Origin: Nitrospira sp.
GTDB lineage: Bacteria; Nitrospirota; Nitrospiria; Nitrospirales; Nitrospiraceae
Assembly (NCBI GenBank): GCA_024998625.1
Contig: JACOEL010000001.1
Span: 62,001 to 126,000, forward strand
Direction of reading: 5' to 3'
Length of the DNA: 64,000 bases
Positions 6,245 through 48,592 of the stretch are shown here, piece by piece. Position numbers and translations under genes: made by a program. The notes below the pieces were generated by a model, which saw only the letters and a program-made list of their open reading frames with translations, made no database searches and was not told the origin of the DNA. How positions within the stretch are numbered: position 1 is the stretch's first letter; every line of letters starts with the position of its first letter.

Positions 6245-6316
6245 AACATCGTGAGGCGTGAGACGTAAAACGGGAAAAGAAAGCCGCCCCTACGTTGAGG
6301 GAGCGCTTCCCATGGG

Positions 6317-20607: not shown

Positions 20608-20671
20608 TTAATGGAGAATTGATAGTGGAGAGTTGAAAATGCTCGTTATGATTCATTTTCAATTCTTAACT
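20608..20671. repeat. Hairpin repeat R3 of the hsd operon
   Basis: Left arm 20608-20641 (GAATTGATAGTGGAGAGTTG within it, ending AAAATG) and right arm 20654-20671 (CATTTTCAATTCTTAAC) are imperfect reverse complements. It closes the downstream side of the four-helix-bundle gene and contains that gene's stop codon. Confidence 0.7.
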
Positions 20672-21015
20672 GTCCTGGATGTTTTCACAATCGAGACCAG
20701 AAGTTTAACGAGTTCTTCGCTATCCATTCGGATGGACTCAAAACTCTGCTCGGCGATGTATTCGGACTGATGGAGCAACTCCAGCCAGTAAAGGGTTTCG
20801 TTGGCTTCCTTGAGGGCAATATTCATTTTGTGTGTGAAGTCGGCTTTACTTTCCGCATGTTCCGCCTCGCGCACCAACGCGCCAATGGCTGTGCCGCTGC
20901 GTAATACTTGTTTGGATAACACAAACTCCTTCTTCTCGCCTTGCAAGTATTTCGTCAACGTCACCACCCGGAGCGCGAAAGCGAACGATTTCGCTTTGAC
21001 GACATTCTCTTTCAT
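20659..21015 (-). CDS. Four-helix-bundle protein (S23/IVP family)
   Basis: 118 residues from the ATG at 21015. Family hallmarks are FALRVVTLTKYL, the central LSKQVLRSGTAIGALVREA, and ESKADFTHKMNIALKEANET followed by YWLELL. This is the family first found in intervening sequences of 23S rRNA and now seen as stand-alone genes of unknown function. The gene is bounded by two halves of the local hairpin repeat in inverted orientation, and its ATG is part of the upstream repeat. It interrupts the hsd operon between hsdS and the AlbA_2 gene, which suggests a mobile cassette. Confidence 0.88.
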   Translation of the reverse strand: MKENVVKAKSFAFALRVVTLTKYLQGEKKEFVLSKQVLRSGTAIGALVREAEHAESKADFTHKMNIALKEANETLYWLELLHQSEYIAEQSFESIRMDSEELVKLLVSIVKTSRTVKN

Positions 21016-21043
21016 TCTCAATTATCCACTCTCAATTTATTAA
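21013..21043. repeat. Hairpin repeat R4 (half copy)
   Basis: CATTCTCAATTATCCACTCTC, a single arm of the hsd-operon hairpin, ends at the start codon of the four-helix-bundle gene. With R3 it forms inverted repeats around that gene (about 80 percent matching over 25 bases). Confidence 0.65.
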
Positions 21044-22330
21044 CCGGATACGTCCGGTTAATAACTCCTGCATCATGCCCTGCTTGAGGAGGCGGGCTTT
21101 GGCGAGCTTGGCTTCCAGCGCGGCAATCTCCGCATCCATGTCGGAGAGAACGGTGGCGATGGCGATTTGTTCGTCGGGTGATGGTGCAGGCACTTCAAAA
21201 CTGCGAATGTCTTCAAGGGAGAGATTCGCTTGAGCTGCTTGGACGTTGATTGCAGTGATATGAGCCAGAATCTGAGGGCCAGCCAGATACTTCAAAAGAA
21301 AGTCGTGACGCAGGCACGACTGGGCTTTAATTCTTATGATCGCCAACGCTTGGTTTGTATTTGCCGAAAGCAGGTCCGTTTTGACAATTGCTGTGCGTCC
21401 CAAAGCACCAGCAATTGAGAACAAAATATCCTTCTCCCGAAGCTGAGATCGTTTCAATAGACGATGTGTATTGTCATCAATTGCTGCCAACATTTCCGAA
21501 ATGACAGAACCCTCTTCACTCAGAGACTCCACCTTTACGAAATTGATTCCTTGATCAGTGAAGTTGCGCCCCAGGGAGGTAGGTGTCGTCCCTTTTGTTA
21601 TGCGGTCGGTTTCATCACCTAATCGCTTCACCTCCCACTCCCCGCTGAACCCGGGCAGGCGCTTCTTGCCGGAGAGGAGTTCCTGCATGGCGCCTTGTTT
21701 GATCTGTCGCTTCTTGGCGAGGAGTTGCTCCAGGGATTCGATGAGGGCATCCGCATCGCTCAGCGCCTCGGCGATGGCGTGTTGTTCGAGTTCAGTTGGC
21801 CATGCGAGGCGCAACTTCTCGAACCGTGAGCCACCAAGGTGCGCGACCGACGTGGTCTGAAGTGCAATTCGAGCGAAAACTCCGGTATGTTGGCAGTGTC
21901 GGAAAAGGTAGGAGGCAAACTTCTCGGAAACGCCAGGGCGTGCTCTAAAACGCAAAAGCGCGTTCTGGATGGCGCATGGCTCAGGGTATTCGTTCTGATA
22001 CAAGGCGCACCGACCAACAAGATCAATACTCTGCCCCTCGTTGAGCAACACATCGCCACTTCGAATCTGGAACTGTGTGAACTGCTCCTCGGTCATTGGC
22101 ATCGTGAGCACGTCGCCAATGTCGATTCGGCCATCAAAGACGTTCTTCGTTCGGAGATACGGGCGTTGCAGTCCAGGCGCATTTACGGCCAATGCCTTGC
22201 CAGTCACGACCTCGCCTTTTTGCCGAACTGCACAAACCTCCCATTCATCCGGGATGATGCCCACCTCGGTCTGTTTGTAGCCAGCCGGAATTAGTTGAGA
22301 ATTGAAAGTTGAGAGTTGAGAATGGCTCAT
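21032..22330 (-). CDS. hsdS: Type I restriction enzyme specificity subunit
   Basis: 432 residues from the ATG at 22330, which overlaps the hsdM stop (ATGA). Two target-recognition domains are each followed by a conserved helix (ALIESLEQLLAKKRQIKQGA near the middle and AALEAKLAKARLLKQGMMQE near the end) ending in LLSGKKRL and LLTGRIRL. GYKQTEVGIIPDEWEV and FSGEWEVKRLGD mark the two TRD starts. HsdS sets the DNA sequence recognised by the complex. The first 14 residues (SHSQLSTFNSQL) are translated from the hairpin repeat R1 and are unlike normal HsdS N-termini. Confidence 0.92.
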   Translation of the reverse strand: MSHSQLSTFNSQLIPAGYKQTEVGIIPDEWEVCAVRQKGEVVTGKALAVNAPGLQRPYLRTKNVFDGRIDIGDVLTMPMTEEQFTQFQIRSGDVLLNEGQSIDLVGRCALYQNEYPEPCAIQNALLRFRARPGVSEKFASYLFRHCQHTGVFARIALQTTSVAHLGGSRFEKLRLAWPTELEQHAIAEALSDADALIESLEQLLAKKRQIKQGAMQELLSGKKRLPGFSGEWEVKRLGDETDRITKGTTPTSLGRNFTDQGINFVKVESLSEEGSVISEMLAAIDDNTHRLLKRSQLREKDILFSIAGALGRTAIVKTDLLSANTNQALAIIRIKAQSCLRHDFLLKYLAGPQILAHITAINVQAAQANLSLEDIRSFEVPAPSPDEQIAIATVLSDMDAEIAALEAKLAKARLLKQGMMQELLTGRIRLIN

Positions 22331-22358
22331 TTTCCACTCTCCACTTTCCACTCTCCAC
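22294..22358. repeat. Hairpin repeat R1 at the hsdM/hsdS junction
   Basis: Arms 22294-22324 and 22328-22358 (31 bases each, three-base loop) are about 84 percent complementary and built from GAGAGTTGA/GAAAGTTGA-like units. The repeat encodes the last residues of HsdM (SGEWKVESGK), the stop codon, and the first residues of HsdS, including its ATG. Confidence 0.8.
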
Positions 22359-24815
22359 TTGGCGCAAATCCCATTTGCGCTAGGTGGCGGTTCACCTTGG
22401 CTTCCAGATCGGCCACGCGATTGACCATCTGCGGCAGCGGGGTTTCGTACCGCTCAGCCAGTTCCTTCACCCGCTGCGTCAGTTGCTGGCTCACGCGGTC
22501 CATCTCGCCGTGAATATCTTGATCCAAAGCAGCGAGCCATTTGTCATCCACGACCAGCTGCTTAATCTCCGCTTCGGTGAGCGTCGGATACTTGGTGTAG
22601 GTCTTGGCATCGAGCGAGGCCTCTGCTTCCTTCAGGCGCTTCTTGAGATCGGCCTCGTCACCGTTCAGCTTCAGCCAGTCGTTCAGCGCGGCTGCTTCGC
22701 CATTGGATAATTGAGAGTTGAAAGTTGAAAATTGAGAATGATCCGTGTCCTTCTTTTTCATTTTCAATTCTCCACTTTCCACTTTCAACTCCTTCAGTCG
22801 CTGCGCGACTGAAGCCGCGTTCACCTTATCGAGTTCGGAGAAAGCCCCTTCGTCGCCGCTATGTTCTTCTTCCAATTCAGTGAGGCGGGCGCTGACAGCT
22901 TCCAGGTCAGCCGTAAGCTGATCGATGGCTTCCTGTTCTTTCGCAAAGTAGCGGGTGACGATGAGCGGCTTAGGCACGAGGTCGCAGGTCCAGCCCTTGT
23001 CCTTTTCCTTGCCCTTCTTGTCCTTCTCAATGATGCGGTAGGTCTCGGCCTTCCACCCGTCGGCGGCAATCAAGTAAGAGTCGTCCTGCATGGTCTCGGC
23101 CCAGTAGTCCATGAGGTGCTGATAGACATCGTATTTGTCGATGAGCGGCTGGCCGACGTAGTGGGCGAGCAGGTCTTCGGACAGTTTGCCGATGAGTTCC
23201 TTCGGGTGGCAGCCGGCCTTCAGTGCACGAAGCGACTTGGCGGTCTTGTGTTTCCACGTCGCAAAGTGGGCGTTCATCCTGCCGATGAAAGCGGCAAATT
23301 CTGGATGCTCGTAGATCGTGGACTTGATCGCCGACTTCTCCACGGACAGATCCAGATAACCGGGCCGGTTGGCCTTGAAGAGTGACCGCCGGAGCTTGGG
23401 GCACACATCCCAGTACTGCTGAAGCGCGTTCACATCCGCTTGCGGAATGCCGCCTTTGAGGTGGCCTTCGATGTCTTGCCGGTCTTCCGCCTGCTGGCTG
23501 TCGATGTAGCGGGGCAGGTTGAGGTTGAACTCGTTCTTTTCAATTTCGTCCACGCTCACCATGCGAGAGTACTTCGGTACGTCGAGGCGCTTGTTGAAGA
23601 CATCCACGATTTGGTGAATGTCCTGGGCGCGGAGGCGGTTCTTCGGACCGTCTTTCATAAATCCGGCGCTCGCGTCGATCATGAAGATACCCTTGCGGGT
23701 ACGGGCCTCCTGTTTGTCCACCACCACGATGCAGGCGGGAATGCCGGTGCCATAAAACAGATTGGCGGGCAGGCCGATGATGCCCTTGATGTAGCCCTTG
23801 CGGATCAGGTTGCGGCGGATGTCGGCCTCGACATTGCCCCGGAACAAGACACCGTGCGGCAGGATGCAGGCTCCCTTGCCGGTGCTCTTGAGCGAGCGGA
23901 CGATGTGCAGCAGGTAGGCGTAGTCGCCTTGCTTGTTGGGCGGCACGCCGAATGACTGGAACCGCTCGTAGGGATCGTTGAGGGGATCGAGTCCTGTACT
24001 CCACCGTTTGTCGCTGAACGGTGGATTGGCGACGACGTAGTCGAAGGTCTTGAGTGGCTGGCCATCCTTGAACTTGGGGTCAGCCAGCGTGTTGCCCTGC
24101 GCGATGAGCGCCGTGGGGTTGTTGTGGAGGATCATGTTCATCCGCGCGAGGCCCGCGGTGGTGCGTCTTTCTCCTGGCCGTAGAGGGTCACCGGCGTGCG
24201 CGCTTCGTCCGCGACTTTCAGCAATAAAGAGCCGGAACCACATGTCGGGTCATAGACCGTGGTATCCGAACTCGTCTTGGCCTCCCTGATGCCTAGAATC
24301 TGCGCGATGATGCGGCTGACTTCGGCCGGTGTATAAAACTGGCCCTTGCTCTTGCCGCTCTCCGTGGCGAAGTGCCGCATGAGGTATTCATAGGCATCGC
24401 CCAGGATGTCGTCGCCTTCGGCGCGGTTTTTGGAGAAGTCGAGTCGCTTGTCTTCAAAAATAGCGATCAGGTCGGTCAGTCGCTTGACCATCTCATCGCC
24501 GCTGCCAAGCTTATTGGCATCGTTGAAGTCCGGCATGTCGGACAGCTTGTTGGCGTTCGCCAGCGGCGCGATGATTTTCTTGTTGATCTGGTCGCCGATG
24601 TCCGGCTTGCCCTTGAGGGCCACCATGTCCTTGAAGCGCGCACCCTTCGGAATAGTGATCGGCGCGTACGGGACATCGGCATACTTGTCGCTGACGTATT
24701 TGATGAACAGGAGGACGAGGACATAGTCCTTGTACTGGCTGGCATCCATGCCGCCGCGCAGCACATCACAACTGGACCAGAGGGAGCTGTAGAGTTCAGA
24801 TTTCTTAATCGCCAT
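22327..24815 (-). pseudogene. hsdM: Type I restriction enzyme methyltransferase subunit, frameshifted
   Basis: The ATG at 24815 opens a frame with the HsdM N-terminal helices and AdoMet motif I DPTCGSGSLLL (189-199). It reaches YGQEKD (D217, near 24165) and then runs out of frame to a stop at 24138. The family sequence resumes one frame over as TTAGLARMNMILHNNP and continues through NPPFSDKRW (motif IV) to the end at 22327. One missing base near 24155-24165 explains this; it is not in a homopolymer. If real, the methyltransferase, and with it modification and restriction, is lost; if an assembly error, the protein is about 830 residues. A hairpin repeat (R2) is inserted in frame in the C-terminal region. 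Confidence 0.9.
22707..22790. repeat. Hairpin repeat R2 inside hsdM
   Basis: Arms 22707-22740 and 22759-22790 with an 18-base loop. It is translated in frame as ELKVESGELKMKKKDTDHSQ and on through FSTFNSQLS, an insert between two coiled-coil-like segments of the HsdM C-terminus. Both flanking segments remain in frame. Confidence 0.78.
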
Positions 24816-33924: not shown

Positions 33925-34052
33925 TAACATGTGAAGCGTGAAAGGGAACGCGGGCACTCCGTGCCCCGTGAAACGTCAAACGTAAAACGTCAGACGGTGG
34001 AGAGTCGAGACGCGGGCACTTACGTTTCACGTCTAACCTTTCACGTCTCACG
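33925..34052. repeat. Inverted pair of GTGAAACG-type micro-repeats
   Basis: Units GTGAAACGTCAAACG and TAAAACGTCAGACG (33968-33995) face TACGTTTCACGTCTAACC and TTTCACGTCTCACGCG (34021-34053), so the stretch can fold into a long imperfect hairpin. ACGCGGGCACT occurs twice inside. It separates two genes of one operon. Confidence 0.65.
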
Positions 34053-34054
34053 CG

Positions 34055-48440: not shown

Positions 48441-48570
48441 CAGGATGCTGAACACGGACGCCGGCTTCGTTCTCGCTGGTCGTGGAGCGTGAATGGTGAA
48501 ACGTGAAATGTAGGACTGGAGAAGGCGTCACTTCTGGGAGCTTGTGACGTTTGACGTTTCACGTCTGACG
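48438..48570. repeat. Fragment of the 130-bp repeat followed by GTGAAACG-type inverted units
   Basis: AACAGGATGCTGAACACGGACGCCGGCTTCGTTCTCGC-like start (48438-48478) is the left end of the larger repeat. It is followed by GTGAATGGTGAAACGTGAAA (48490-48509) and, inverted, TGACGTTTGACGTTTCACG (48545-48563). It separates the SDR and bioD genes. Confidence 0.6.
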
Positions 48571-48592
48571 AATGTCATTCGATGGGAAAAGA

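Follow-up and report, generated by a model that had tools for sequence, protein, structure and literature searches.

The hsd operon of this Nitrospirota genome, contained in a window of 64 kb (the whole stretch of DNA analysed), carries short repeats that supply start codons, stop codons, protein ends and a protein segment read in frame, and it raises the question of whether such repeats are adapted to coding sequence or are the tolerated outcome of insertion. The genes concerned (hsdM, hsdS, a four-helix-bundle or 4HB gene and a Schlafen/AlbA-type gene) all lie on the minus strand.

Heptamer foldbacks in the hsd operon

22327 to 24815, minus strand: hsdM, in two frames (24815-24138 and 24243-22327)
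22792 to 22814: palindrome CTTCAGTCG/CGACTGAAG in hsdM, immediately outside the in-frame foldback
22702 to 22791, minus strand: in-frame foldback inside hsdM (arms 22759-22791 and 22702-22741, loop 22742-22758)
22293 to 22361, minus strand: hsdM/hsdS junction foldback (arms 22328-22361 and 22293-22324, 3-nt loop)
21032 to 22330, minus strand: hsdS, from the ATG in the foldback; a GTG at 22351 is a possible extension
21037 to 21064: perfect palindrome TTATTAACCGGA/TCCGGTTAATAA at the hsdS end, adjoining the solitary arm
21013 to 21037, minus strand: solitary heptamer arm, ending in the GAGAATG that holds the 4HB start codon
20659 to 21015, minus strand: 4HB gene (PF05635 23S_rRNA_IVP, TIGR02436), 118 codons from ATG
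20612 to 20675, minus strand: foldback at the 4HB 3' end (arms 20654-20675 and 20612-20641, loop 20642-20653)

The building block of these repeats is a heptamer, TTGARAR or TGGARAR, which replaces the unit given in the initial annotation; since three heptamers make 21 nt, or seven codons, an array encodes a seven-residue peptide repeat. A three-unit pattern (TTGARARTTGARARTTGARA, up to 3 mismatches) found 13 matches in the window against 0.04 expected from shuffles, all of them confined to 20.6-22.8 kb, so that the repeats reported there are indeed present far above chance. Arrays are short and imperfect, of about 3-5 units each; forward TTG units carry a TGA in every frame, which TGG units do not. 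Spread over 2.2 kb are three foldbacks and one solitary arm rather than the four hairpins first described, the copy at 21013 being a single arm whose inverted partner (20612-20641) lies across the 4HB gene; the numbering of the copies in that description was also out of step with its own coordinate list. The 4HB gene, whose product matches PF05635 with an E value of 1.5e-26 and TIGR02436 with one of 7.6e-30, thus sits between inverted arrays of the heptamer. Its ATG is supplied by the solitary arm, as had been claimed, and to the description of the copy at 20608 we add that this third foldback carries the 4HB stop codon, a TGA inside its first arm.

In mRNA the repeats would fold into hairpins, the predicted folding energies being -27.8 kcal/mol for the junction foldback (z -4.5 against shuffles), -28.3 kcal/mol for the HsdM foldback (z -4.3) and -14.1 kcal/mol for that at the 4HB 3' end (z -3.3). 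At the junction, the first arm encodes the HsdM C-terminus (...SGEWKVESGK*), the loop-side ATGA is the HsdM stop overlapping the HsdS ATG, and HsdS residues within MSHSQLSTFNSQLI come from the second arm; direct reading therefore bears out that one copy comprises the end of HsdM, its stop, and the ATG and first 14 residues of HsdS. Given the ATGA overlap that the foldback supplies, translation of HsdS is probably coupled to that of HsdM. The copy reported in frame inside HsdM is likewise present and translates as LKVESGELKMKKKDTDHSQFSTFNSQLSN, with the correction that the gene harboring it is broken by a frameshift at 24138-24243, upstream of the insert; relatives such as locus L041 have one open frame here, and the split is either a real frameshift or a sequencing error.

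Filled and empty sites in hsd relatives

Hairpin arrays are missing from nearly all of 80 related loci from many phyla, found by a search with the HsdM C-terminus. They occur in two Nitrospira loci (L041 and L042) and in a genome of the same order (G189, locus L014), and weakly in L063 and L073; the 4HB gene with its arms, arranged as in the window, is found in L042 and L169. Since the repeat-free relatives encode the same positions with unrelated DNA, we conclude that the repeats were inserted, as the initial annotation had supposed. That annotation had also named this very observation as one that would count against it; the observation is borne out, yet it points to insertion and is no refutation.

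Repeat-free HsdM proteins have a short turn at the site of the in-frame foldback, as in RLKEIKGDKDAKDEAAVL. The corresponding segment measures 150 nt in these proteins, 156 nt in L041, L042 and L073, which have one arm, and 213 nt in the window and L014, which have the full foldback (+63 nt). Every HsdM variant found keeps the frame, in agreement with the earlier statement that reading frames stay usable, and in a small and partly related sample (the window, L014, L041 and L042) the stop-prone unit reads TGG or is changed in some other way. In an AlphaFold2 model (mean pLDDT 62.9) the insert lies between two helices, in a loop predicted with low confidence. HsdM may therefore tolerate the insert because it falls in a loop between helices, because its length is a multiple of three and because TGG units stand where TTG would yield TGA. 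A second in-frame HsdM heptamer arm was seen at matching positions in L014 (872-905, NYSQLSIIPSQL; Nitrospirota) and L160 (about 1503-1525, NYSQLSILQAQL; KSB1).

In an HsdM tree built with the insert left out, the window groups with L041-L044 (support 100/99) and L014 with L073 (97/99). Each of these two groups contains both the full-foldback and the single-arm state, from which it follows that the same spot in HsdM changed state more than once, either through recurrent gain and loss or through exchange. The junction foldback is missing from L043, L044 and L169 and present in the window, L014 and L041. In L041 it has one unit fewer, with the result that HsdM runs into the second arm and ends in STLNF, and the foldback folds weakly (z -1.9).

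These variants bear on two further explanations. Changes in heptamer number could act as an on/off switch for HsdM or HsdS, like the simple sequence repeats of other type I systems, and a unit length that is no multiple of three, the presence of arrays in both hsdM and hsdS and the one-unit difference in L041 speak for such phase variation. The near-perfect arrays and frame-switching lengths typical of phase-variable repeats are, however, not those of short, imperfect arrays whose HsdM variants are all in frame, and we consider phase variation highly improbable here and fast, reversible switching by heptamer number unlikely. The foldbacks might instead be kept as regulatory hairpins, for translation control through HsdM/HsdS coupling or for cutting by RNase III, as in rRNA intervening sequences (IVSs). 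Shuffled sequences fold much less well than the junction foldbacks of the window and L014, HsdS begins where the stem meets its loop, with the ATGA overlap, and heptamers just 5' of start codons in Beggiatoaceae were proposed to be translational sites (excerpt of PMC4679880). Yet most relatives have the same operon without foldbacks, the in-frame HsdM copy has no such use and the foldback of L041 is weak. Regulation is thus an improbable primary explanation, and would be compatible, as a secondary effect, with the element proposed below.

The initial annotation had named an absence of further copies in the genome as a second refuting observation, and for this repeat type a genome-wide search did find none: the TTGARAR type is restricted to the hsd locus, with no other occurrence in 4.42 Mb, and its genome-wide spread was accordingly rejected. 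Exact three-unit TTGARAR arrays were also absent from the other genomes of the same genus and family that were sampled, and most likely this repeat type came with the hsd operon. What the genome does contain is a dispersed heptamer family of another kind, CGTNARA, which gave 82 matches against 0 to a reversed control pattern and has arrays or hairpins in the window at 6250-6277, 33959-34053 and 48481-48574. By crude ORF calls, 30 of the 35 CGTNARA places examined are intergenic and the remaining five count as lying in ORFs, three or more of these at an ORF end; 12 of the 35 are plus/minus pairs forming hairpins. With 30 of 35 places of this resident family intergenic, the proposed adaptation of the repeat to coding sequence is unsupported, and the in-frame cases are probably tolerated survivors.

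Inverted arrays at four-helix-bundle genes

The initial annotation overlooked an association of such arrays with 4HB genes that holds across phyla. The association looked absent at first, TTGARAR arrays being found in 0 of 30 PF05635 loci; a sequence-free lag-7 test revealed arrays at the same 30 loci, the first search having missed them because the unit differs between loci. Our survey covered 144 4HB genes or loci from three bacterial phyla, of which 117 distinct loci entered the comparison between genes. Period-7 arrays lie directly upstream of the PF05635 gene in 33% of the 30 top-scoring loci, in 59% of the 29 loci nearest to the 4HB gene of the window, in 24% of 29 loci from the phylum of a Chlorobiaceae genome and in 26% of 27 Planctomycetota loci, against 1.4-2.2% in control windows taken from these loci; at this position almost no arrays have a period other than 7 or 8.

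By the same score, inverted arms of 7- or 8-nt units flank 58 of the 117 4HB loci and 8 of 657 other genes (Fisher p = 2e-45), a comparison in which loci are phylogenetically non-independent and the period was picked after looking. Arms or arrays together are present at 83 of the 117 distinct loci, roughly one third being without any detected. The best period among 92 loci with arms is 7 in 60 and 8 in 22, and the purine-rich strand upstream is the coding strand in 51 of 58 loci. The repeat unit varies from locus to locus, even inside one genome (G434), while the two sides of a locus agree; when upstream flanks are compared with reverse-complemented downstream flanks, those of one locus match each other far better than those of different loci. 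The two other PF05635 genes in the genome of the window are without arrays.

Two broader patterns were considered and set aside. Arrays are not widely clustered around 4HB genes, 20-kb neighborhoods being just modestly above controls, and the effect lies at the gene edges. The order seen in the window and in G433 (forward array, 4HB gene, forward array, loop, inverted array) is not general either: direct and inverted 3' copies occur together in 12 of 144 loci, and an origin of foldbacks by deletion between direct repeats is thus not supported as a general route. Runs of three or four 4HB genes, many about 1.6 kb apart, were noted in G359:C14, G343:C11 and G331:C6, all from one phylum.

In genome G433 a 4HB gene occurs twice, at unrelated places; the copies share 88% identity over about 450 nt, and the homology stops at the repeat arrays. 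One of them lies between what we take, by eye from the sequence, to be a murA-like and an ffh-like gene. Two copies in G014 (L333 and L334) are 95% identical over 532 nt and are weaker evidence for an element because homologous, repeat-rich sequence continues beyond them. Neither a target duplication nor a conserved terminus nor a mobility enzyme was found.

A putative intervening-sequence-like element

The closest anatomy among known systems is that of the 23S rRNA IVS of Coxiella burnetii, which has a 28-bp terminal stem, is cut by RNase III and carries, immediately 5' of the S23p ATG, heptameric repeats whose number differs from strain to strain (PMC4990558). In both systems a PF05635 ORF lies inside a terminal inverted-repeat stem, and horizontal acquisition is thought for the Coxiella IVS as it is for the hsd element. 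The hsd locus shares with IVSs the terminal inverted-repeat stem, in the form of arms around the 4HB gene and three foldbacks, and, with the larger IVSs, an S23p/IVP ORF preceded by 5' heptamers, here the arm that provides the PF05635 ATG. It differs in lying in a protein-coding operon, with extra ORF-less foldbacks of which one is read in frame; the window gave no match in an Rfam search, and because the location is not 23S rRNA we describe the element as IVS-like and not as an IVS. In the open-licence literature on PF05635 or S23 proteins with heptamers or inverted repeats, the Coxiella IVS was the only direct precedent.

Other heptamer systems resemble the hsd repeats in part. The TAACTGA heptamers of Beggiatoaceae, Cyanobacteria and Bacteroidetes lie, like those described here, immediately 5' of start codons, where they overlap upstream stops; their forward units stop all frames, and their reverse units are open and found in ORFs (excerpt of PMC4679880). 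They consist, however, of one single unit in almost exclusively direct orientation, with one indirect repeat reported, whereas the hsd arrays are inverted and built on TTGARAR/TGGARAR; the excerpt makes no mention of a four-helix-bundle gene or PF05635. Tandem 7- or 8-nt units in Geobacter metallireducens, mostly in opposite-strand pairs at variable distance, were read as binding sites of a global regulator and, in the part of that report consulted, are not linked to PF05635 (PMC2700814). Miniature inverted-repeat transposable elements (MITEs) are defined by inverted repeats of one family, a target-site duplication and a related transposase; at the hsd locus the repeats are inverted, the unit is one that differs between loci, no target duplication was found, and there was no transposase among the proteins scanned. 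PF05635 proteins resemble, in sequence and structure, Avd, which is needed for retrohoming of diversity-generating retroelements (PMC10053308). By analogy, a role of the 4HB protein in RNA or cDNA handling is no more than a reasonable guess. No reverse transcriptase was present among the scanned proteins of the hsd locus.

Our preferred interpretation, to which we assign a probability of about 0.6, is that of an IVS-like 4HB hairpin element residing outside rRNA, with ORF-less copies in the same operon. The 4HB gene and its arms would represent the complete element and the gene-less foldbacks incomplete copies or remnants, which would have arrived together with a horizontally moved hsd operon or have multiplied inside it. 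Subsequent slippage and template switching at the foldbacks may change the number of units while keeping the two arms alike, a step supported by the palindromes adjoining the arrays: that at the hsdS end is imperfect in the repeat-free relatives read, and that in hsdM was not found in them. Counting against the element are the two array-free PF05635 genes of this genome, the third or so of surveyed loci with no arrays detected, the arrays located far from 4HB genes, and the negative outcome for a target duplication, a conserved terminus or a mobility enzyme.

The same processes could, on the other hand, account for the repeats with no element at all, arrays and foldbacks arising in place where quasi-palindromes near gene edges give rise to replication slippage and template switching, and the presence of 4HB genes in such places being mere chance. 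A unit that varies by locus, even within one genome, is unlike ordinary transposon ends and counts in favor of this alternative, as do the one-unit difference between L041 and the window, the perfect host palindromes beside the arrays, the occurrence, in each of two separate clades, of both a single arm and a full foldback at one HsdM site, and the existence of heptamer arrays far from any 4HB gene. It is difficult to reconcile with the strong specificity for PF05635 genes, with the joint presence of 4HB gene and arrays at unrelated sites of G433 and with four sites in 2.2 kb that share a repeat type missing elsewhere in the genome, and we hold it to be a possible but somewhat unlikely account.

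The coding coincidences of the hsd operon probably reflect insertions that were tolerated because they fell at the edges of genes and in a loop of a protein, and the general tie between inverted heptamer arrays and 4HB genes is the more interesting fact. IVP genes are common in environmental bacteria and scattered heptamer arrays have repeatedly been reported without a cause; connecting the two provides both with a testable explanation, suggests that a general element includes rRNA IVSs as one of its forms, and illustrates a route from hairpin to start codons, protein ends and in-frame segments. That the unit is particular to each locus and yet agrees between its two sides is out of the ordinary, and suggests an unrecognized copying or repair process. 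A more far-reaching version, which we regard as doubtful, would make PF05635 proteins part of a very widespread class of selfish hairpin elements, in which every insertion creates a new short repeat unit and each copy thereby has inverted 7- or 8-nt arrays of its own. The rRNA IVSs would be the special case of insertion into rRNA, and in-frame hairpins like that of HsdM would be ORF-less copies turned protein.

Several minor observations concern arrays and 4HB genes in other settings. TTGARAR arrays were seen at a trpC/trpF-like junction, overlapping the upstream stop (L015, 1015-1043), and at the start of an MgtE-like gene (L013, 1499-1520); no 4HB gene was detected in these two loci of 2.5-3 kb. 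In L063 (Eisenbacteria, 1201-2824) HsdS and the 4HB protein are fused in one frame through the repeat-like peptide SGELRM. A second 4HB gene of the L042 genome (L152, about 1490-1990) has TGGACAA/TGGAGAA heptamers on both sides and adjoins a RhuM-like-looking gene. Finally, the L333 and L334 copies of G014 adjoin repeated sequence of CRISPR-like appearance. A published CRISPR screen includes the 23S rRNA IVP domain among associated domains (PMC10910872), and short arrays such as these might partly explain that entry.
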